A DNA stretch of 64,000 nt from Lacinutrix venerupis. Its GTDB lineage: Bacteria > Bacteroidota > Bacteroidia > Flavobacteriales > Flavobacteriaceae. The stretch spans positions 186,001-250,000 of the forward strand of contig NZ_RCCH01000006.1 of assembly GCF_003663945.1 (NCBI RefSeq), read 5' to 3'. The first letter of the stretch is position 1; every line of letters begins with the position of its first letter. Under the pieces are notes generated by a model. It searched no databases and was not told the DNA's origin. It worked only from the letters and a program-made list of their open reading frames with translations. Of this stretch, positions 11,883 through 64,000 are shown piece after piece. Position numbers and translations under genes: made by a program.

Positions 11883-11888
11883 TTCTCA

Positions 11889-12123
11889 AATTGCATACAA
11901 TGTTCCGCCTGATATGAAATCGTTTTAATGTTTTATATCAGACGATAGACGAAGTTAGTGTATTTTTTTAACCAAGTCAAGTATATAAAATTTAATGTTT
12001 GTGTATAGGAAGTTACGTGTTTAAGTAGCTGATTTAGCAAATAAAAAACCGAATAGAAAATCTGTGAGGATTTTCAGAAGTAGGTGAGAACAAGTAGCTA
12101 CTTATAGTCATTGTTGGCTGTCA
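11889..12123. repeat. Array A, full spacer repeat between two cassette genes
   Basis: Right half (about 11893-11975): GCATACAATGTTCC, then the imperfect hairpin TGATATGAAATCG...GTTTTATATCA, then CGAAGTTA (TAACTTCG on the minus strand). Left half of the next unit (about 12030-12123): A-rich CGAATAGAAAATC, GAGGATTTTCAGAAG, TAGCTACTTATAGTC and TTGTTGGCTGTCA. Both halves align with the array B spacer at 25350-25563 in the same order and orientation, more than 13 kb away. Confidence 0.75.
11950..11980 (-). promoter_or_regulatory. Repeat-borne promoter reading into array A gene 1
   Basis: On the minus strand TTG (11980-11978), exactly 20 nt, then TAACTTCG (11957-11950). This fits the Bacteroidota consensus TTG-N19 to N21-TAnnTTTG with one change. 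The resulting leader of about 60 nt would contain the repeat hairpin before the ATG at 11882. The same arrangement with identical spacing occurs at 12705-12735. Confidence 0.55.
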
Positions 12124-12622: not shown

Positions 12623-12647
12623 AAGGTTCTTTCAATTGTTTCAGCTT

Positions 12648-12735
12648 GCTGTCAATGCTCCGCCTAATATGAAATCATTTTAATGTTTTATATGTGACTA
12701 TAGACGAAGTTAGTGTATTTTTCTAATGATATCAA
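12648..12735. repeat. Array A, right half-repeat with promoter-like box
   Basis: The order GCTGTCAATGCTCCGCC, AATATGAAATCATTTTAATG, TTTTATATGTG, ATAGACGAAGTTAGTG matches the first half of 11889-12123. On the minus strand it carries TTG (12735-12733), 20 nt, TAACTTCG (12712-12705), pointing at the gene at 12128-12622. GCTGTCA at 12648-12654 repeats GCTGTCA at 12117-12123 on the other side of the gene. The TTG lies 12 bases from the stop codon of the next gene, so the array edge abuts a gene end. Confidence 0.72.
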
Positions 12736-21994: not shown

Positions 21995-22152
21995 CATATA
22001 TTTTACGATTTGTAACTATCTTATTTTTATTACTTAATATATATTTATTTTCTTTATTGCGCGGAAAGTGCTTTTTTAAAAAAGATTCCGCGTATTATAA
22101 TTTTATATTACGCTGAAAGTTGTATATTTACATAGATTCCGCTAAGTATAGT

Positions 22153-23583
22153 ATGAAAATTATAGGTAGAAAAGACGAACGTAAAACCATGCAAGCTATG
22201 CAGCGCGATACAAAAGCACACATGTTGGCTATTATTGGTCGTCGTCGTGTTGGTAAAACATTTTTAATACGCGAAGTATATAAAAACGACAAGGTTTTTG
22301 AAATGACTGGTTTAAAAGATGCTAATCTTCACGACCAGTTAATGAATTTTACCATACAAATGAATTTGTATTTTAAAGCTGAAAAACCTTATACAAAGCC
22401 CGAAAGTTGGTTAATGGCTTTTAGTGAGTTAAGTGCAGCAGTGAGCAATAGTAGTTTAAAAAAGCCTGTTGTTTTTTTAGATGAATTGCCATGGATTGCC
22501 AGTAAGCGCTCTGGTTTTATGGAAGCTTTGGCACACTGGTGGAATAATTGGGCGTCGCAACAAAACATAATTGTAGTGGTTTGTGGCTCTGCCGCATCAT
22601 GGATGCTTCAGCATGTGGTAAATGCAAAAGGTGGTTTGCATAATCGAATTACCAAACTTATTACATTAATGCCTTTTACATTACATGAAACCGAAGCTTT
22701 TTTAAAGGGAAAAAATATAGTAATGAGTCACTACCAAATTATACAGCTATATTTAGCATTAGGTGGCATTCCGCATTACTTAGATCAAGTAGAAAAAGGT
22801 AAAAGTGCTGCACAAAACATTAACGATTTGTGCTTTAAAAAGGATGGCTTTTTAACTACAGAGTTTAATAACCTTTATCCTGCTTTATTCGATAATGCAG
22901 GAAGCCATATTAAAATTGTAAAAGCTTTGGCTAGTAAGGCTAGCGGATTAAACAGACAAAGTATTTTAAAATTAACAAAACTGTCTGATGGTGGTTATTT
23001 TACAAACATTTTAAACGAGTTAGAGGCTTCAGGATTTATTTCAACCTTCGAGCCTTTAGAAAAAAGTAAAAAAGACACACTTTTTAGGTTAACCGATGAG
23101 TACTCGTTGTTTTATCTCACCTTTATGGTAGGACAAAATAAGCTTAACAAAAGTGATTGGCTACGTGTTAGCGAAACACAACCGTATAAAATTTGGTGTG
23201 GTTATGCTTTCGAGAATTTATGTATTAAACATATTGAAAACATTAAAGCGGCTTTAGGTATTTTGGGTGTAGAAACTAAAGTGAATAGTTTTTTGCACAG
23301 AAAGGATGCTAACTACCCAAAAGGCTTCCAGATTGATATGCTTATTGATAGAAAAGATAACATAATAAACATTTGCGAAATGAAGTTTTATGCCGATGAA
23401 TTTGCTATTACTAAAGATTATGCACAAAAACTACGTACCAAACGCGAAGGTTTAAAAACGGTTACAAAGTCTAAAAAAATGGTACATATTACTTTTATAA
23501 GTGCCTACGGTGTTTTAGAGAATATGCATAAAATGGATTTGGTAGAGAATGACTTTACAACTTCAATATTTTTTGATTCGTAA
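22153..23583 (+). CDS. AAA-family ATPase with C-terminal PD-(D/E)xK nuclease-like (DUF234) region
   Basis: 476 residues. Walker A is GRRRVGKTF (29-37), Walker B VVFLDELPW (about 104-112), and the sensor region CGSAASWM. A winged-helix-like segment follows (LTKLSDGGYFTNILNELEASGF). The C-terminus has GFQIDMLID then ICEMKFY, matching the D...ExK core of a restriction-like nuclease. This is the archaeal-type ATPase/DUF234 layout common in Bacteroidota. The function is unsettled; it may be a mobile-element or defence-associated ATPase. ATG 22153 is chosen because it starts the conserved KIIGRKDE. Array B begins about 20 nt behind its stop codon. Confidence 0.8.
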   Translation: MKIIGRKDERKTMQAMQRDTKAHMLAIIGRRRVGKTFLIREVYKNDKVFEMTGLKDANLHDQLMNFTIQMNLYFKAEKPYTKPESWLMAFSELSAAVSNSSLKKPVVFLDELPWIASKRSGFMEALAHWWNNWASQQNIIVVVCGSAASWMLQHVVNAKGGLHNRITKLITLMPFTLHETEAFLKGKNIVMSHYQIIQLYLALGGIPHYLDQVEKGKSAAQNINDLCFKKDGFLTTEFNNLYPALFDNAGSHIKIVKALASKASGLNRQSILKLTKLSDGGYFTNILNELEASGFISTFEPLEKSKKDTLFRLTDEYSLFYLTFMVGQNKLNKSDWLRVSETQPYKIWCGYAFENLCIKHIENIKAALGILGVETKVNSFLHRKDANYPKGFQIDMLIDRKDNIINICEMKFYADEFAITKDYAQKLRTKREGLKTVTKSKKMVHITFISAYGVLENMHKMDLVENDFTTSIFFDS

Positions 23584-23604: not shown

Positions 23605-23722
23605 AAGAATAGTTGCGGGTTTGTATGCGAGGATTTTCCGAAGGAAAATCAGATGTAGCAAATACGCAACTACCTTTATTTAAGCACAAAATAGCAATTA
23701 TTTTTATACTTTGTTGTGTGTA
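23605..23722. repeat. Array B, left half-repeat, overlapping the 3' end of a gene
   Basis: AGTTGCG (23610-23616) and CGCAACT (23665-23671) enclose a perfect GATTTTCC-GAA-GGAAAATC hairpin (23632-23650). AGCAATTATTTTTATA and GTTGTGTGTA (23713-23722) then match the end of the spacer at 25350-25563. GTTGTGTGTA is exactly inverted as TACACACAAC at 25351-25360, beyond the three-gene module. The last 47 bases lie inside the nucleotidyltransferase reading frame. Confidence 0.72.
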
Positions 23723-24002
23723 GTTTTATTTTTCTGCTATTCGTCTTATCGATAAAATTTAACTCCAGTTCCTCATTCTTAGTGAGACAAGTCAAATGTG
23801 GCAGTTTGTATTGGAATTCCTTATTTATTGAATCTTTAACTTTTTTTAATTCGTTAAAATCTGAATAAATAATCAGTATATCAACATCATTATAATGTTC
23901 ATTTTTTAAGAATGAACCAAATAAATAGAATTCAAATTCAGACTTTAATTTTAAAGTGTTTATAAAGCTAATAAACTTTTCTATAAATTCGGTTAACTCC
24001 AA
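23676..24002 (-). CDS. Minimal nucleotidyltransferase (MNT/pol-beta fold), third gene of the HNH module
   Basis: 108 residues. LFGSFLKNEHYNDVDILII (27-45) has the G-S...D-x-D signature (S30, D39, D41) of pol-beta-type nucleotidyltransferases. NFIDKT further on could supply a third acidic residue. Family members AMPylate or nucleotidylate proteins or RNAs, often as antitoxins to HEPN toxins; no HEPN protein is beside it here. The only start is TTG at 24002, overlapping the upstream gene by 10 nt, so translation is probably coupled. Its last 15 or so codons and stop are formed by the array repeat, so the C-terminus may depend on the cassette junction. Confidence 0.7.
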   Translation of the reverse strand: MELTEFIEKFISFINTLKLKSEFEFYLFGSFLKNEHYNDVDILIIYSDFNELKKVKDSINKEFQYKLPHLTCLTKNEELELNFIDKTNSRKIKLHTTKYKNNCYFVLK

Positions 24003-24649
24003 GACGTATTTAATTTACCTAGCAACTCTCCCCATTTACAAATATCAATATTTAAAGACTTTGCAATTGTGTATGCTTCAGTTGATATCCTTGCGTTGGG
24101 ATTAGTCGAAATCATAACTTTAAAATCATTAAATCTAGCTTTATATGACCTGACAGATTCTGCTCCAAGCTCATAGTCGTTGTTCATAACAGCGATGACA
24201 TCTTTTAGTACAACTCTTTCAATTTTTATTCTTTTGTTATCTAGTCGTTCAATTGATTTTACCTTGTCGTGCTGATTTAAGCCTCGATGGACAAAACCAA
24301 ATTCTTTATCTAATTGCAATGAGTTATCTTCTTTATTAGCAAATCTCATTAGGTCTCCCATTCCACCAAACGAAATCTTTTTACTGTTCAAAAAATTCAT
24401 TGCAGAACCACTAATTTTATATTCCTTTTTAATATTTGTAATGAATTTAATGTCGCTCTTGTAATTTACAATTTCCTCAATGTCATTTAATTTGATTGAT
24501 TCTAATGACATTGTGAAAGTTAAAAATGATGCACCTTTTTTTCTTTCTATTTTTAAAAGGTTATTATCACTTGGGATTATTGTTTTAATACTATCAAAAT
24601 CTTTTAATTTATCTTTTAAAAAATTACTTGACCAATTGTCATTATACAT
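23993..24649 (-). CDS. Unrecognised protein, middle gene of the HNH module
   Basis: 218 residues with no signal peptide or membrane segment. It has a Lys/Asp/Asn-rich N-terminal half and a C-terminal block (SYKARFNDFKVMISTNPNAR, then STEAYTIAKSLNIDICKWGELL). The block resembles the end of nuclease- or Rossmann-like domains in which a Lys-containing strand is followed by an alternating helix, but no catalytic motif can be assigned. The ATG overlaps the HNH stop by 8 nt, and its own stop overlaps the TTG start of the nucleotidyltransferase by 10 nt. The overlaps indicate one operon and a joint function. Confidence 0.65.
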   Translation of the reverse strand: MYNDNWSSNFLKDKLKDFDSIKTIIPSDNNLLKIERKKGASFLTFTMSLESIKLNDIEEIVNYKSDIKFITNIKKEYKISGSAMNFLNSKKISFGGMGDLMRFANKEDNSLQLDKEFGFVHRGLNQHDKVKSIERLDNKRIKIERVVLKDVIAVMNNDYELGAESVRSYKARFNDFKVMISTNPNARISTEAYTIAKSLNIDICKWGELLGKLNTSWS

Positions 24650-25331
24650 ACGTTTCTGTTATTTTTATTGGAAATTGAATTCCATTGGATTCTTCGTTAT
24701 AAATATGCTTTGATTCAAAATCGTGTAAATGATGCTTGAAACTTTCAAAAACAATTTTCTCATCACTATTTAACAAGTCGTAGTTAGAATCAATTATATT
24801 TAATATTTTTCGATTATTAGGTATTATAAATTCTCTGATTTTCTTTAACCATAAAACTGGCATTGTACTTTCTGGATTATACCTTTCATCTGTATTTGGT
24901 CCATAAGTTTCAAAAATCATTCTGTTTTCTAGTAAAATTGGCTCTATATGCTTTCTTGCTTCATTTCTATTTTTGTATTTTTTTATCCCAAATACATTAT
25001 TAAGTTTATTTTTATGTTCACTTTTCCATTTGAGAATTAGTTCTGTAGGGAAGTCATCTTCTGCTTTGTCGATTGTAGTATGGCAATTAGGACATAGTAA
25101 TATTAAATTTTCATAACTACCCTTTTCTTCAGGTGTTAATTTGCTGTTTTTTCTAGCTCCTTTATTAACACTAATAATATGTGCAATTTCAGCAATATGA
25201 ATTTCTTTTTCTTCAAAAGTTTTGAATAGATTTTCGTTGCAATCTGGATTTTGACAAAAACCACCTGAATTTGCAAATAATTTAGTTTTAGTAAATGGAT
25301 TTGGTGATGCTTTTCCTCTTTTACAACTCAT
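24642..25331 (-). CDS. HNH endonuclease, first gene of the HNH module
   Basis: 229 residues. Cys26 and Cys31 (FCQNPDCNENLF), His51 (IAEIAHIISV), Asn75 and C80-P-N-C83-H84 (LLCPNCHTTID) form a zinc-ribbon HNH (beta-beta-alpha metal) nuclease at about residues 20-90. The remaining 140 residues are helical with no known domain. HNH proteins cut DNA in restriction, retron, CBASS and other defence systems. The protein starts 19 nt after the right half-repeat end (TACACACAAC, 25351-25360), which encodes the upstream leader. It is the first gene of a three-gene overlapping operon on the minus strand. Confidence 0.8.
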   Translation of the reverse strand: MSCKRGKASPNPFTKTKLFANSGGFCQNPDCNENLFKTFEEKEIHIAEIAHIISVNKGARKNSKLTPEEKGSYENLILLCPNCHTTIDKAEDDFPTELILKWKSEHKNKLNNVFGIKKYKNRNEARKHIEPILLENRMIFETYGPNTDERYNPESTMPVLWLKKIREFIIPNNRKILNIIDSNYDLLNSDEKIVFESFKHHLHDFESKHIYNEESNGIQFPIKITETYV

Positions 25332-25349
25332 TCGGTTGGTTAGTTTAAA

Positions 25350-25563
25350 TTACACACAACGTGTTGACTGATATGAAAACGTTTAAATGTTTTATATTAA
25401 GCGATAGTTTATGCTGCGAAGGTAATTTTTTTTAATAAATAATTATATGCTTTTGCATAGGTACTCTTGGAATTTTAGCAAATAAAAACTGAATAAAAAC
25501 TTCGTTAGGATTTTCAAAAATAGTTGAGAATAAGCAATTACTTATAGCTGTTGTTGTGTGGCT
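25350..25563. repeat. Array B, full spacer repeat between the HNH module and trkH
   Basis: Right half: TACACACAACGTGTTGAC, TGATATGAAAACG, GTTTTATATTAAGCGATAG, and a minus-strand TACCTTCG box (25424-25417). Left half: AAATAAAAACTGAATAAAAAC, GTTAGGATTTTCAAAAATAG, GAGAATAAGCAATTACTTATA, GTTGTTGTGTG. The order and spacing match the array A spacer (11889-12123). The minus-strand box could drive the HNH module; no TTG is found 20 nt upstream of it. Confidence 0.75.
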
Positions 25564-25585: not shown

Positions 25586-26965
25586 TCATACAGCCAAATC
25601 ATCAGTTCTTATTTTTTTAGAATCGTTCTCTTTTTGTTGCAACAAAGCAAATCCAAAAGTTAGAACTCCAACTCGTCCAATAAACATTAAAATAATTATC
25701 AATATTTTACCAATATTAGATAAATCTCCTGTAATTCCTGTGCTTAATCCAACAGTTCCTAAAGCGGATGCTACTTCAAATAATATACTGTCAAAAGAAA
25801 AGTTTTCAAAGTAAGAAAGTAAAAATGAAAACAAGAAAATTAAACTTGTGTAAAGCATAAAAGTAGATGTCGCAACATATATTCTCTCAAATGGAATGAG
25901 TCTGTTTAAAAATGTGATTTTTTTCTGACCAAACAATCTGCTTTTCAATATCGATAGCATTGCCGTCAATGTTGTTATTTTCATTCCACCTGCTGTTCCT
26001 GAAGGCGAAGCTCCAATGTACATAAGAAAGGTTATAAGCAATAATATTGGCAAGGATAATTCACCAATAGGTATTGAGTTAAACCCAACTGTTGTCATAG
26101 CTGACATTGCTTGAAAGAAAGATGTCATTAGTGAACTACTTGAACCAAGAATAGATGTTGACTCTGTTGTGTAAATGAGTAAAGTACCTAAAAAAAGTAA
26201 AAACAAAACCCCATAGATAATGATTTTAGTTGTGAACGATATTTCTTTTGATTTACCTCTAATTCGATACCACAAATCTGTAATTACAATAAAACCCAAA
26301 GAACCAGAAATTGCTAATACAGAAATAATTGTGTTTATAAAAGTATTGTCTTGATAGCTTTCGAAACCATCATTAAACAATCCAAATCCAGCTGTGCAAA
26401 ACGATGAAATACTATGAAAAATTGAAAACCAAATTGCTTTTAAACTGCCCATTCCTGAATTGGTAAAGGCAAAGTAGAAAAGTATAGCTCCAATAGTTTC
26501 CATTATTAGGGTAAAAACAATAACGCTTTTGATGAAATCTTTTATCTGAATTGTATTGGGTAAAGTAAATTCCGTACCTATTAATTTACTATGCCAATGC
26601 GTTATTTTTTTGGTAGTAAATAATAAATAGTATGTTGTTAGTGTCATATATCCAATTCCGCCAATTTGTATTAACGCCATAATAACAAATTGACCAAAAA
26701 AATTATAGGAATCGAAAACGCTTATAGTTACAAGTCCAGTAGTTGAAATAGCTGAAGTTGAAATAAACAAATTATCTAAAAAGTATATATCGGTTTTGTG
26801 GAATAAAGGAATAGACAGTAAAAGAAATCCAATTAGCGTATACAAAAAGAATCCCCAAACTAAATTCATTTGAGGTGATTTACTAATTTGAAATTTACGA
26901 TACCAATTAGATATTTTCTTGTATGTTTTATTTTTCATTCTTTGTATTTCGTTTTTTAATGACAT
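25586..26965 (-). CDS. TrkH/KtrB-family potassium transporter subunit
   Basis: 459 residues with eight or more membrane segments. Four P-loop-like elements each keep the filter glycine: STSAISTTGLV, SSFCTAGFGLF, SAMTTVGFNSI and SALGTVGLSTG. LMYIGASPSGTAGGMKITT is also conserved. This subunit forms the K+ (or Na+/K+) channel in the inner membrane. It normally works with a TrkA/KtrA RCK subunit, which is absent here. The start ATG 26965 lies in the array repeat; ATG 26938 is an alternative that would give MKNKTYKK. A transporter as a single cassette gene is unusual. Confidence 0.9.
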   Translation of the reverse strand: MSLKNEIQRMKNKTYKKISNWYRKFQISKSPQMNLVWGFFLYTLIGFLLLSIPLFHKTDIYFLDNLFISTSAISTTGLVTISVFDSYNFFGQFVIMALIQIGGIGYMTLTTYYLLFTTKKITHWHSKLIGTEFTLPNTIQIKDFIKSVIVFTLIMETIGAILFYFAFTNSGMGSLKAIWFSIFHSISSFCTAGFGLFNDGFESYQDNTFINTIISVLAISGSLGFIVITDLWYRIRGKSKEISFTTKIIIYGVLFLLFLGTLLIYTTESTSILGSSSSLMTSFFQAMSAMTTVGFNSIPIGELSLPILLLITFLMYIGASPSGTAGGMKITTLTAMLSILKSRLFGQKKITFLNRLIPFERIYVATSTFMLYTSLIFLFSFLLSYFENFSFDSILFEVASALGTVGLSTGITGDLSNIGKILIIILMFIGRVGVLTFGFALLQQKENDSKKIRTDDLAV

Positions 26966-27183
26966 ACAACGTGTCGACTGATATGAAAACGTTTAAATGT
27001 TTTATATCAAACAATAGTTTAAAATACGAAGTTAATTGATTTTTAATAGATAGTTACTTGTTTTCTACATAAATACTTATTGTATTTAAGTACCTAATTT
27101 TGTAACATTTAAAAACCAGATGTGATTTTTAAAGTATTTAGAATTAGGCAAGAGTGATGCAATTATTTATATGCGTTGCTGTA
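26966..27183. repeat. Array B, spacer repeat between trkH and the DUF6090 gene
   Basis: CATACAACGTG (from 26963), TGATATGAAAACGTTTAAATG, GTTTTATATC, ATAGTTTA and CGAAGTTA (27027-27034; TAACTTCG on the minus strand) repeat the right half. A more diverged left half follows (AAAAACCAGATG, GATGCAATTATTTATA, GTTGCTGTAC). CATACAAC (26963-26970) is the near-inverse of GTTGTGTG at 25553-25560, on the other side of trkH. Confidence 0.68.
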
Positions 27184-59729: not shown

Positions 59730-62700
59730 TTAGAATTTAATCATTTTTTGAGTATGAATAATTGAATTTTTAGAATTAGAAAGTCTTAAAAAATAAGGAG
59801 CTTGATCTAATCTTTCTAAACCATTAATTGTTAATTTTCTTAATGATGGAGTAGTAGCCTTAGTATAAACAACTCTTCCATTTAAATCGTAAATTGTTAC
59901 TGTTATTATTTCATTATTATAATTTAATGGTAATAAAATATTAATAGTTGAATTAAAAGGATTAGGACTAATACTAATGTTTTCATTTTCAAATTCTGTA
60001 GATCCTAAGGTTTCTTCATCATATCCATCACAATCTTCATCAATACCATTTTGAGGAATCTCAGTTGCTTCTGGATTTATTAAGTTGTTAGAATCATCAC
60101 AATCTGTATCGTTTGTAACGTAGCCCATTGGCTGAGTACAATCTTGAATTGAATTATTTGCATCACCATATCCATCATCATCTGTATCTGCATAATAAGT
60201 GATTGCTGTTCCGTTATTTGTTATTTCCCATGTACATGTAGTTTCGTTAAACGTTGCAGTTTCGTAACATTCTGTAGCAGGTTCAGGATCTTGAGTTCCT
60301 ATGTTTTCCCATTGGCATGTGCTATCGTTAAATTGGTAATTATCCCAACAATTAACAGCAGTTGGTTCAGGATCTTGAGTTCCTATGTTTTCCCATTGGC
60401 ATGTGCTATCGTTAAATTGGTAATTATCCCAACAGTTAACAGCAGTTGGTTCAGGATCTTGAGTTCCTATGTTTTCCCATTGGCATGTACTATCGTTAAA
60501 TTGGTAGTTATCCCAACAATTAACAGCCGTTGGTTCAGGATCTTGAGTTCCTATGTTTTCCCATTGGCATGTGCTATCGTTAAATTGGTAATTATCCCAA
60601 CAGTTAACAGCAGTTGGTTCAGGATCTTGAGTTCCTATGTTTTCCCATTGGCATGTGCTATCGTTAAATTGGTAATTATCCCAACAATTAACAGCAGTTG
60701 GTTCAGGATCTTGAGTTCCTATGTTTTCCCATTGGCATGTGCTATCGTTAAATTGGTAATTATCCCAACAGTTAACAGCAGTTGGTTCAGGATCTTGAGT
60801 TCCTGTGTTTTCCCACTGGCATGTACTATCGTTAAATTGGTAATTATCCCAACAGTTAACGGCAGTTGGTTCAGGATCTTGAGTTCCTGTGTTTTCCCAT
60901 TGGCATGTGCTATCGTTAAATTGGTAATTATCCCAACAGTTAACAGCAGTTGGTTCAGGATCTTGAGTTCCTGTGTTTTCCCACTGGCACGTACTATCGT
61001 TAAATTGGTAGTTATCCCAACAATTAACAGCCGTTGGTTCAGGATCTTGAGTTCCTATGTTTTCCCATTGGCATGTGCTATCGTTAAATTGGTAATTATC
61101 CCAACAGTTAACAGCAGTTGGTTCAGGATCTTGAGTTCCTGTGTTTTCCCACTGGCATGTGCTATCGTTAAATTGGTAGTTATCCCAACAGTTAACAGCA
61201 GTTGGTTCAGGATCTTGAGTTCCTGTATTTTCCCATTGGCATGTACTATCGTTAAATTGGTAATTATCCCAACAGTTAACGGCAGTTGGTTCAGGATCTT
61301 GAGTTCCTGTGTTTTCCCATTGGCATGTGCTATCGTTAAATTGGTAATTATCCCAACAGTTAACAGCAGTTGGTTCAGGATCTTGAGTACCTGTGTTTTC
61401 CCAAGAACAATTTGTATAGTTGTAAGTGTAATTGTCCCAGCAATTTACTGTAGGAGGTTCATCTTGTAGTGTTATTGTTACAACGGCTGTACAAGTGTCA
61501 GAATTTCCATTAGCATCCGTCACAGTTAAGGTTACATTATTTGCACCTTCATCTTCGCAAGTAAAACTTGTTTTAGATGCAGAAATACTAGCTATTCCAC
61601 AATTATCTGAAGAGCCATTATTAATTTGAGACGCTGTTATTGTTGCATTACCTGAATTATCTAATTGTACAGTTATGTTTTGGCAAACAGCGGTTGGATT
61701 TTCGTTGTCCGCTATTATGTTTACATTAAACGACGCTGTTTCCGTATTACCACTATCATCGGTTACTGAGTAGCTTATAGTTGTGTTTCCAGTAGGAAAA
61801 GTGTCTCCACTGTTTAATCCTGTAGCATCAGTTCTAACAACAGTTAAAGTGGTATCACAATTGTCTGTTGCTGTTGGGTCTGTCCATGTTGGATTATTGT
61901 TTCCACAGGTAAATGATTGGTCACTAGGTACATTAACGAATTCTGGGTTTACTTGGTCTACTACAGTAACAGTTGCGGTACAAGTATCGGTTTGAGATTC
62001 GGCATCTGTAACAGTAAGTGTTACGGTTACTGGAGTTCCAATATTAGAACAATCGAAAGTATCAATATCTATTGCGTAGTTTGTAATAGCTACATCGTCT
62101 GTAGAACCATTATCTATATCTGTTGCTATAATAGTTGCATTACCGGTATTATCTAATTGTACTGTAATGTTTTGGCAAGCCGCTACAGGTGGTGAAGAAG
62201 TGGCTACATCTGCTGTAAAATTAATATTGTCTACAGAGATATCACTTCTAAAACCAGAACCAGTAATACCATGAAAACGTAATTTAATTGTTTGGCCATC
62301 GTAATCAGATAAATCAATAGTTTCTGTTAACCATGGATTTGAATTAGCTGTTGTTTGAGAGTTTGGCTGACCAATTTGAGTAAAAACAGTATTAAAAGTT
62401 GCAAAATTATCTGTACTAACTTCTACATATAAATTTCCCATTGTTGCACCAAACATATGGTAGTCGAAAGAGAATTGAGAATTTTCGTAACCATCTAATT
62501 CAAAACATGGACTTGTGATATAAGCAACTTTGTTTGGATAACCTGTTCCTTCTCCTGATGCTTCAGTATAAATATAAAACGTGCCATCACTTGCTCCAGA
62601 AGGACCAGTAATATCTGGATTATTAGTAGTGTTTGTTGGTGTCGTTCCAGAGTTTCTTGTCCAATCTATATCGTCTCCACTTGTGTTATTTGTCCATAAA

Positions 62701-64000
62701 CCGAAATCTGCTTCAAAACTTTCAGAGTATGGAAATGAGACAACAGGAGTGCCTGTACAAGGAACAGCTGCCGGAGTTGTAAAATTTTCAATAGCGCTAT
62801 AACTAGAAGTGTTAGTTTCGCATCGTGTTCTTACACGTACATCGTAATCTGTATCTGCCGACAGTCCTGTAATAGTGTAGCTATTTGTAGAAAGGTTTGT
62901 AACAGTTGTCCAACCAGCTGCTCCAGATCCAGTTTCTCTATATCTTAAATCGTAAGTAGCAGAAGTTACTTCAAACCAATCTACTTGTGCAGAGAATGCT
63001 GAAATGTTTGAAAATGTAATATTTGTAGGAACAGTAGTTTGGCAAGCTACATTAACGCTAATAATTTTAAAATCGTCTATAAAGAAACCATCGTTTGTTG
63101 TAGAATAGTTTTCGTTTACGTTTAATGCATCTGTTCTAAAATTGAATCTTATTTTTACGTTGTTTGAGTTAATAAGAGAAGCGTAATTGCTGGCGTCTAT
63201 GGTAAATTCTTCCATAACCCAATTATCCATTCTGTCTCCGTCATAAACTTGCCCAGAACTATTAGCTTGAAAATTGGCATATGAAGAACTTTTATTATCA
63301 TGACTAGTTGTTGCACTAGTTGCATTTGGCTTTGTGTAATTTCCACAAAGTGACACCCAACTAGAACCACCATCTGGCGAACCTAAAACTTCAACAAAAT
63401 CATAATTTCTTTCTATATCCCATTTTGAATAAAACTGTATAAGGACTTCTTCTGAATTGGTAAAATCGTAACTATTTGTGGTAGTTAATGTTTTTGTAAC
63501 ATTATTATTATATGTTCCTGTGCTAATAGCGTTAGATCCTGAATATGCATCAGACGTTGTGTTAATCCAACCATTAGATTGTGTCCAACCTGTTAAACCT
63601 GTAGCATCTGGATCGTGGTCGAATAATAGTGTTGGTTGATAATATTTTTTATAGTTAGCTTCATAAATAATACCATCATCATTAGAAAGTTTAACATTGT
63701 ATTGAATTTCTTGATTAGTAGTAATACTTGGATCTAAATTTAAAGAAAATGAAACTGTTCTTTGAGAGAGTACAGGCATTCCTGTTTCTGTTACAGGAGA
63801 AGATATACTTGTTATATTAGAAGAAACAGGAGTTACTGTAACTGTAAAATCACTTGCAGTTTGCCCAATACGTTCAATACCAAACTCTATATTTTCAGTT
63901 AAGTTTGTTAGATTACTTTGTGTTAAATCGTGTAGTTTGGCATATTTTCCACCATAATAAGCTGTGGCTAAGCTAATTCGCATAGAGCGTTTAGCAATAG
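59730..64000 (-). CDS. Large T9SS-exported protein with 28-residue repeats, partial at the window edge
   Basis: The frame runs open to the window edge, so the N-terminus is missing; the visible part starts IAKRSMRISL. In order: a beta-sandwich near the N-terminus (SYDFTNSEEVLIQFYSKWDI), an FN3 domain (SATYDLRYRETGSGAAGWTT), a MAM-like domain (PYSESFEADFGLWTNN, SPCFELDGYENSQFSFDYH), HYR-like repeats (VAACQNITVQLDNTGNATI, CTAVVTI), about 14 repeats of the 28-residue type, a calcium-binding-like YYADTDDDGYGDANNS and EDCDGYDEE (MopE-like), and a T9SS sorting domain (FENENISISPNPFNSTINIL to RLSNSKNSIIHTQKMIKF). It could be an adhesin or the C-terminal part of a protease. Confidence 0.85.
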   Translation of the reverse strand, partial: IAKRSMRISLATAYYGGKYAKLHDLTQSNLTNLTENIEFGIERIGQTASDFTVTVTPVSSNITSISSPVTETGMPVLSQRTVSFSLNLDPSITTNQEIQYNVKLSNDDGIIYEANYKKYYQPTLLFDHDPDATGLTGWTQSNGWINTTSDAYSGSNAISTGTYNNNVTKTLTTTNSYDFTNSEEVLIQFYSKWDIERNYDFVEVLGSPDGGSSWVSLCGNYTKPNATSATTSHDNKSSSYANFQANSSGQVYDGDRMDNWVMEEFTIDASNYASLINSNNVKIRFNFRTDALNVNENYSTTNDGFFIDDFKIISVNVACQTTVPTNITFSNISAFSAQVDWFEVTSATYDLRYRETGSGAAGWTTVTNLSTNSYTITGLSADTDYDVRVRTRCETNTSSYSAIENFTTPAAVPCTGTPVVSFPYSESFEADFGLWTNNTSGDDIDWTRNSGTTPTNTTNNPDITGPSGASDGTFYIYTEASGEGTGYPNKVAYITSPCFELDGYENSQFSFDYHMFGATMGNLYVEVSTDNFATFNTVFTQIGQPNSQTTANSNPWLTETIDLSDYDGQTIKLRFHGITGSGFRSDISVDNINFTADVATSSPPVAACQNITVQLDNTGNATIIATDIDNGSTDDVAITNYAIDIDTFDCSNIGTPVTVTLTVTDAESQTDTCTATVTVVDQVNPEFVNVPSDQSFTCGNNNPTWTDPTATDNCDTTLTVVRTDATGLNSGDTFPTGNTTISYSVTDDSGNTETASFNVNIIADNENPTAVCQNITVQLDNSGNATITASQINNGSSDNCGIASISASKTSFTCEDEGANNVTLTVTDANGNSDTCTAVVTITLQDEPPTVNCWDNYTYNYTNCSWENTGTQDPEPTAVNCWDNYQFNDSTCQWENTGTQDPEPTAVNCWDNYQFNDSTCQWENTGTQDPEPTAVNCWDNYQFNDSTCQWENTGTQDPEPTAVNCWDNYQFNDSTCQWENIGTQDPEPTAVNCWDNYQFNDSTCQWENTGTQDPEPTAVNCWDNYQFNDSTCQWENTGTQDPEPTAVNCWDNYQFNDSTCQWENTGTQDPEPTAVNCWDNYQFNDSTCQWENIGTQDPEPTAVNCWDNYQFNDSTCQWENIGTQDPEPTAVNCWDNYQFNDSTCQWENIGTQDPEPTAVNCWDNYQFNDSTCQWENIGTQDPEPTAVNCWDNYQFNDSTCQWENIGTQDPEPTAVNCWDNYQFNDSTCQWENIGTQDPEPATECYETATFNETTCTWEITNNGTAITYYADTDDDGYGDANNSIQDCTQPMGYVTNDTDCDDSNNLINPEATEIPQNGIDEDCDGYDEETLGSTEFENENISISPNPFNSTINILLPLNYNNEIITVTIYDLNGRVVYTKATTPSLRKLTINGLERLDQAPYFLRLSNSKNSIIHTQKMIKF
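60282..61457. repeat. 84-bp tandem repeat array coding for a 28-residue motif
   Basis: Thirteen near-identical 84-bp units (60282-61373) plus a diverged unit at the N-terminal end (61374-61457). The protein motif is PTAVNCWDNYQFNDSTCQWE followed by NTGTQDPE. The two cysteines of each unit are conserved, and the only amino-acid difference is Thr or Ile in N(T/I)GTQ. The units differ by only a few bases, including silent ones, so the array is recently expanded. 84 is a multiple of 3, so all frames stay open and a long plus-strand frame is a shadow. Confidence 0.95.

Follow-up and report, generated by a model that had tools for sequence, protein, structure and literature searches.

A recurrent gene trio of HNH nuclease, duplicated middle protein and minimal nucleotidyltransferase in Lacinutrix venerupis as a candidate mobile defence module

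Three overlapping genes on the minus strand of a 64,000-nucleotide stretch of the Lacinutrix venerupis genome (contig NZ_RCCH01000006.1, positions 186,001 to 250,000; hereafter the window) encode an HNH endonuclease protein, a middle protein and a minimal nucleotidyltransferase (NTase). In our best reading, which we consider quite likely, these genes constitute one mobile, NTase-regulated defence module with an HNH effector, probably of the abortive-infection type. The observations in its support are the co-occurrence of the three genes, conserved catalytic residues, a domain duplication, one swapped N-terminus, gene fusions and a defence-rich neighbourhood. The original prediction, made from the letters of the window, had described three minus-strand genes overlapping by 8 and 10 nucleotides (nt), and recomputed coordinates gave the same values: 8 nt for the HNH and middle genes and 10 nt for the middle and NTase genes. 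The features of the trio are as follows:

25331-24642, minus strand: HNH endonuclease protein, putative effector (229 aa, ATG start; Pfam and alignment)
25002..25331, minus strand: HNH nuclease domain, approximately residues 1-110 (matches to PDB 9om4, Cap5-type structures and PDC-M68A; residue conservation)
24645..24998, minus strand: C-terminal domain (CTD) of the HNH protein, approximately residues 112-229 (conservation; a relative is fused to an NTase at locus L123)
24649-23993, minus strand: middle protein, no named family, tandem alpha/beta units (218 aa, ATG start)
24338..24637, minus strand: middle protein unit 1, residues 5-104 (AlphaFold model, hhalign)
24014..24307, minus strand: middle protein unit 2, residues 115-212 (AlphaFold model, hhalign; the better match of the single-unit proteins of clade II, see below)
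24002-23676, minus strand: minimal NTase, GS...DxD...[DH] (108 aa, TTG start; Pfam, PDB profile, conservation)

Results

Co-occurrence of the three genes

The window's middle protein gave the first impression of an orphan: used alone, it returned no close relatives in genome contigs or viral contigs, and among 99 genomes its own was the only one matched. This impression was overturned by distant trios on plasmids. A tblastn search of 72,556 plasmid records with the middle protein matched nine of them at 20-26% identity, of which five were examined, the other four being Ensifer/Rhizobium records with match figures identical to those of examined ones. At all five plasmid loci, an HNH gene lay directly upstream of the middle gene and an NTase open reading frame (ORF) directly downstream; at L003 no NTase is annotated, but one ORF there encodes the GS...DxD motif.

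When an HNH alignment (A2) was used for scanning, genome contigs gave 224 relatives, of which the best 80 were kept for scoring, and viral contigs gave 27. The HNH match extended past profile position 190 at 98 of the scored places, 97 of which had a middle gene directly downstream and 95 the NTase as well; after the removal of duplicates (the window had been counted twice, and L007, L050 and L094 are apparently one 81,089-base contig), 95 places remained, 94 with the middle gene and 92 with both partners. The 98 comprise seven search seeds (the window twice and L002-L006), L007, which was found via the middle protein, and the rear piece of L067. At the three misses the contig comes to an end, with 551 bases remaining at L013, 399 at L026 and 6 at L096. 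Eighteen more rows matched the front of the profile only, namely 16 viral loci, L033 at a contig edge and the front piece of L067; none of the 16 viral loci, which carry the HNH domain alone (L099-L114), had partners, two of them having fewer than 450 bases downstream. At L067 (373-1068), in a metagenome-assembled genome (MAG) of Methylobacteriaceae, the HNH gene is in two pieces beside the middle and NTase ORFs.

The linkage was also seen from the other parts of the trio. Plasmid loci found via the CTD in Acinetobacter (L129), Klebsiella (L132) and Novosphingobium (L133) had matches to all three proteins, and two new genomes found from the middle protein alone (L120 and L122) both contained the full trio. 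A profile of the middle protein (A4) had exactly one match in each of 39 whole trio-carrying genomes (40 were intended for this count; L046 was absent). Across wider groups, from which genomes were drawn evenly and at most seven or eight candidates were scored per genome, the middle profile matched 2 of 385 genomes in the class of the Mesorhizobium genome (1 of 384 besides the starting genome), 2 of 395 in the window's phylum (1 of 394) and 1 of 369 in the class of the Proteus genome (0 of 368). The trio is rare and patchy yet tightly linked, and its gene order is shared by widely differing bacteria. Because the gene order is conserved, it is not a chance arrangement, and neither outcome that had been named as speaking against a module, absence of co-occurrence elsewhere or HNH and minimal nucleotidyltransferase (MNT) proteins found only apart, was encountered, the trio being present in 95 of the 98 scored places.

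The two enzymes

The HNH protein matched PF01844 (E 3.1e-5) and PF13391 (E 5e-5) in Pfam, both above the cut-off, and shared 28-57% identity with its aligned relatives. Its nuclease core was evaluated in an alignment of 59 rows (A5), hand-picked from the window and 88 loci, with L002-L006 and L067 left out. The zinc-ribbon residues named in the original prediction are kept across these relatives: C26, C31, H51, N75 and C80 in 59 of 59 rows, H84 in 58, and C83 in 53, the other six having H. The CTD has its own invariant positions in the same rows (P145, W161, P171, H201 and P221). The best PDB match of the HNH domain was the HNH endonuclease 9om4 (E 2.6e-29); it also matched the Cap5-type structures of the cyclic oligonucleotide-based anti-phage signalling system (CBASS), 7rwm (E 6.9e-23) and 8fm1 (E 4.8e-21). 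In PADLOC, whose matches to the HNH protein are confined to approximately residues 10-120, the CBASS HNH effector models matched with E 2.1e-25, and PDC-M68A matched residues 14-111 (E 1.1e-26; profile positions 9-109 of 253). The likeness to PDC-M68 is thus one of the HNH domain and, unlike a full-length match, ends with it, at or before profile position 112 of 253; PDC-M68B had no match in the trio proteins scanned, and a neighbour of one trio does match PDC-M68B.

The third protein matched PF01909 (NTP_transf_2) at E 6.2e-6, above the cut-off. In 45 NTase rows (A6), hand-picked from the window and 88 loci with redundancy partly cut and L002-L006 omitted, F28-G29-S30, D39, D41 and E77 are invariant, which bears out the pol-beta core (S30, D39 and D41) proposed earlier, and residue 69, at the third metal-ligand position, is split between D (24 rows) and H (21 rows). 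Because the catalytic residues are conserved, both the HNH nuclease and the NTase look active. The best PDB matches of the NTase profile were minimal NTases, including the Mnt-family antidote 5yep (E 1.9e-4), and the trio NTase appears to have the MNT fold with its GS...DxD core. It shares this minimal NTase with the HEPN-MNT (HepT/MntA) pair and with the PADLOC MNT candidate PDC-M63A; unlike HEPN-MNT, the trio has either an HNH DNase or a membrane protein as its putative effector, and its core has three parts. Scans of trio proteins from the window, from E. coli and from plasmids gave no HEPN match, nor was an adjacent HEPN gene encountered. On the Acinetobacter plasmid pMsp22 (L129:5734-6412), the NTase ORF has 70 aa and is directly followed by transposase genes; the third gene of this locus looks interrupted.

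Fusions and a swapped N-terminus

A search of the phylum revealed a weak second match of the middle protein (E 1.2e-4) in the window's own genome (L123; G000:C1, approximately 230.0-231.3 kb). The ORF upstream of this middle-like gene encodes 321 aa. Residues 76-213 of the frame matched the CTD of the HNH protein (E 4.4e-18, profile positions 115-230), and residues 213-323 matched the NTase (E 8.1e-8), with both profiles built without L123. Used as a query, the L123 protein returned the window's HNH protein (E 7.7e-10, 33% identity over residues 97-208); a later CTD profile (A7) contains the L123 protein, and its match to L123 is no added evidence. In place of the HNH domain, the first 80 residues contain hydrophobic stretches at approximately 24-42 and 53-71, with best 19-residue means of 1.84 and 1.71, and a 122-aa middle-like protein follows the CTD-NTase fusion. 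L123 therefore represents an apparent effector swap, with two predicted membrane helices for the HNH domain. A different fusion was found at L060 (8678-9199), in a MAG labelled Actinomycetota, where a middle unit and an NTase were matched within one ORF. Because the CTD is fused to the NTase in one case and a middle unit to the NTase in the other, these fusions speak for contact or mutual action among the three parts. Because the nuclease is exchanged for a membrane domain, the single example of L123 also argues that the CTD-NTase-middle core would be the switch and the N-terminus the weapon.

Variants of the CTD were sought in 246 genomes of the order, which yielded only the two copies of the L. 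venerupis genome, and a viral scan with the membrane-type fusion gave no match. A protein on a Comamonas plasmid (L128:4962-5723) resembles the N-terminus of L123 (33% over 63 residues, E 1e-3), and the L128 stretch had no match to any of the three trio profiles. The membrane domain may be an effector unit shared with this protein.

These results bear on a CBASS-like signalling account, in which the NTase would make a nucleotide messenger upon infection and the messenger would bind the CTD and switch the effector on. Like Cap5 (HNH-SAVED), the trio has an N-terminal HNH domain, a nuclease joined to a C-terminal domain and a nucleotidyltransferase gene nearby; the resemblance of the HNH domain to Cap5-type effectors speaks for this account, as does the exchange of nuclease for membrane effector, which is typical of CBASS-like systems. 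Unlike in Cap5, the CTD is not matched as SAVED, Cap5 and SAVED models matching the HNH part alone (residues up to approximately 140), and, unlike in CBASS, there are no ThiF/JAB genes within the trio. We know of no CBASS counterpart of the extra middle protein. The CD-NTase cyclase of CBASS has approximately 300-400 aa, whereas the trio NTase is of the minimal kind, with approximately 100 aa and its best PDB matches among minimal NTases, and the CTD-NTase fusion favours action in cis. CBASS membership was rejected on the grounds that the NTase has 108 aa with minimal-NTase PDB matches and that no CD-NTase model appeared in the Pfam or PADLOC results. The minimal nature of the NTase and its fusion to the CTD in L123 make a second-messenger role less likely, and we regard the signalling account as unlikely.

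A duplicated middle protein

The middle gene had been described as resembling no nameable family, and this description held: middle proteins had no significant match in Pfam, NCBIfam, PADLOC or the PDB, where the results were nothing or chance-level. An AlphaFold2 model built from 62 rows (A4; hand-picked from the window and 88 loci, partly against redundancy, L002-L006 omitted) had a mean predicted local distance difference test (pLDDT) of 95.8 and a predicted template modelling (pTM) score of 0.88. The order helix, three strands, helix, strand, helix, strand, helix occurs twice, in residues 5-104 and 115-212, the first unit having one additional short strand. The two halves matched each other in an hhalign profile comparison (probability 98.4, E 9.1e-15), and an alignment of 19 shorter middle proteins (including L055, L056, L068, L078-L087 and the middle-like protein of L123) matched the second half with E 3.9e-21 and the first half with E 1.1e-15, all of these E-values being pairwise, with no database behind them. 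The middle protein thus consists of two tandem copies of an alpha/beta unit of approximately 105 residues, and a second clade (clade II) has a single-unit middle protein.

The order of the elements, which we take to be that of restriction-endonuclease-like folds, suggests that the middle protein is perhaps a dead restriction-endonuclease (PD-(D/E)XK) fold; in the predicted model, the alpha-beta3-alpha-beta core order fits twice. At the strand-3 positions 45, 47, 153, 155 and 156, no D, E or K was found among the residues shown (at least 60 of the 62 rows at each), and no D...(D/E)xK active site was seen at the other positions, which were checked by eye in six rows. An Mrr/PD-(D/E)XK nuclease identity was rejected, as no active site was seen. 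Because the order is restriction-endonuclease-like and the counted strand-3 positions lack D, E and K, we read this protein as a pseudo-nuclease that probably binds nucleic acid or serves as a scaffold.

A type IV-like restriction system could also be imagined, in which the middle protein would read modified phage DNA, the HNH protein would cut and the NTase would regulate. The predicted duplication of restriction-endonuclease-like units is consistent with such a system, and in E. coli NILS69 an HNH endonuclease was found to act against both phage and plasmid (PMC12409345). However, the trio has no modification or motor gene, and the membrane-type locus keeps a middle-like protein without an HNH domain; this account seems improbable to us.

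A defence-rich neighbourhood

In E. coli, one query was matched in 16 of 5,426 complete genomes, in 14 of them (including ATCC 8739) over at least 80% of its length, and a second query in 1 of 5,426. Of the matches of the first query, three regions were read (L115, L116 and L118), and all contained the trio, flanked by replication endonuclease/DinI-like genes on one side and by the portal gene of a P2-like prophage on the other. This position is the old/tin locus of P2 (gpA-gpQ), described as a hotspot of anti-phage systems that carries tested systems (PMC9122126, PMC9519451). Approximately 10 kb from the trio of the strain I4 type is a nucleotidyltransferase-ThiF-Mov34-SAVED gene set, read as CBASS. 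By annotated genes, plasmid copies adjoin Shedu at one locus and DRT3 at another; another plasmid copy adjoins a phospholipase D protein, with an ABC-three-component (ABC-3C) system approximately 3 kb off.

To quantify this neighbourhood, the nearest ORFs (at most four per locus) at 34 of the 88 module loci were compared with a like number of ORFs from 34 stretches placed on the same contigs, ORFs of <100 aa or >4,800 nt being dropped. At E<=1e-20, PADLOC matched 108 families for 134 neighbour proteins versus 6 for 135 control proteins, counts that refer to families, several models per protein being possible, so that the excess in proteins is smaller than 108:6. The 25 of the 108 neighbour families that were shown include LmuA/LmuB, GajA/GajB, AbiEi/AbiEii, a type I specificity subunit and PDC-M68B, and the Lamassu, Gabija and AbiE systems are thereby represented. 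Module neighbours are richer in PADLOC families than same-contig controls, and this excess, together with the recurrence of the trio, supports the original proposal of a defence or toxin-antitoxin module.

The same data bear on two accounts without a primary role in defence. A housekeeping or DNA-repair operon with no phage link would agree with the occurrence of HNH and pol-beta folds among repair proteins; it is highly improbable, as the trio is rare, patchy and located in prophages, plasmids and islands and its neighbours are enriched in PADLOC families over controls. A toxin-antitoxin addiction module for plasmid or prophage upkeep is more credible: an HNH or membrane toxin would be held by a nucleotidylating NTase antitoxin, the middle protein would serve as a chaperone or co-antitoxin, and any defence would be a by-product. 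The overlapping genes, mobile elements, patchy spread and CTD-NTase fusion all agree with it, as does the 5yep match, MNT antitoxins being partners of HEPN toxins in HEPN-MNT toxin-antitoxin pairs (PMC3710099). However, defence islands and the P2 defence hotspot both harbour copies, and a conserved three-part core with a duplicated middle exceeds the needs of a classical pair. We regard addiction as a tenable account that is somewhat doubtful; the trio may act either as a toxin-antitoxin pair or as a sensing defence system.

Discussion

For the NTase-regulated defence module that we favour, we propose the following mechanism. The HNH protein would be the effector, with an N-terminal DNase domain on a C-terminal regulatory domain, the CTD, and the small NTase and the middle protein would form its control unit. 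The NTase most likely binds the CTD directly and would nucleotidylate the CTD or a partner, setting the state of the effector; via the CTD it would either restrain the HNH DNase, like an antitoxin, or activate it. A precedent for restraint is the MNT antitoxin of HEPN toxins. The middle protein would sense or hold nucleic acid and couple infection to nuclease release, and the freed nuclease would destroy DNA and halt the phage, probably at the cell's cost. In the sister version in the same genome, a two-helix membrane domain would sit on the CTD-NTase core instead of the nuclease, and the effector would be exchangeable.

Several points weigh against this reading. Anti-phage function, direct contact, nucleotidylation, the sensing role and cell death are elements that we infer; the activity of the NTase is predicted from residue conservation, its target is putative, and the restriction-endonuclease reading of the middle protein is drawn from the predicted order of secondary-structure elements. 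The scored places were the best 80 of the 224 genome-contig relatives, the 27 viral ones and 6 found via the middle protein, and the partner scan covered the downstream side of HNH only. Two middle proteins had no tblastn match in 50,697 phage records. A single membrane-type locus was found, further copies having been sought and none obtained. The controls were not empty, containing mad3 (four proteins), two PDC-M37B models, and DolB, BrxHI and QueC (one each), and of the window's own neighbours (three scanned with Pfam and two with PADLOC), an AAA ATPase alone matched a PADLOC model.

Whether the trio belongs to an undescribed defence family, that is, a three-part switch of CTD, minimal NTase and duplicated pseudo-restriction-endonuclease with interchangeable DNase or membrane-disrupting effectors and no CBASS-type cyclase, is in our judgement evenly balanced. 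No PADLOC model matched the middle proteins scanned, the NTases matched weak MNT models only, and the middle proteins and NTases of E. coli matched 0 PADLOC families. The trio homologues of ATCC 8739 are annotated as three hypothetical proteins. A P2 hotspot system without a clear predicted domain, reportedly named Rst_3HP in DefenseFinder, likewise has three genes at the gpA-gpQ locus (Rousset 2022); it may be the same as the trio, which may already be listed or tested in that study. Within a literature search that excluded preprints and most subscription papers, no publication was recognised as describing the trio.

If the favoured reading is true, a widely spread compact defence system would be added to those known; its HNH and NTase domains are the only parts matched in the libraries searched. 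Minimal nucleotidyltransferases, best known as HEPN toxin partners, would acquire a further function, the control of DNA-cutting and membrane effectors. E. coli ATCC 8739, a common laboratory strain, provides a ready experimental copy of the trio.

5' element and other features of the window

The module was said to lie in a cassette array of accessory genes. A repeated element ahead of genes does exist:

25344..25433, no strand assigned: 5' element copy 1, ahead of the HNH gene (84% like 26954-27043)
26954..27043, no strand assigned: 5' element copy 2, ahead of a trkH-like gene (repeat of copy 1)

This 90-nt element, with 84% identity between the two copies, occurs genome-wide at eight places on five contigs (L143-L150), three of the places being in the window, and a related core precedes the membrane-type locus (L125, near L123). 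By eye, it consists of a TAnnTTCG promoter-like word (TAACTTCG-like), presumably a promoter by comparison with Bacteroidota promoters, followed by a hairpin such as TATAAAACATTAAAACGATTTCATATCAG. Further stretches of the window with the element are at approximately 11888-11948 and 12640-12720, and some gene 3' ends look hairpin-like by eye. The array part of the claim is borne out only in part: the copies are scattered over five contigs, and the integron integrase model TIGR02249 had nine matches in the genome (19 contigs), none above the cut-off (best 97.3 versus 265 bits), sub-threshold matches also being found in 14 of 14 control genomes. The module is in a cassette-like unit, and the array does not appear to be a classical integron; the 5' element may mark a system of dispersed cassettes that lacks an integron integrase.

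The AAA ATPase gene at 22120-23583 on the plus strand is convergent with the module, and its product matched the PADLOC candidate PDC-S27 (E 5.6e-187, residues 12-485). At the far end of the window (59730-63983, minus strand) is a 1417-aa ORF with many near-identical repeats of approximately 28 residues, and the opposite strand has a 392-aa open frame across the repeats.

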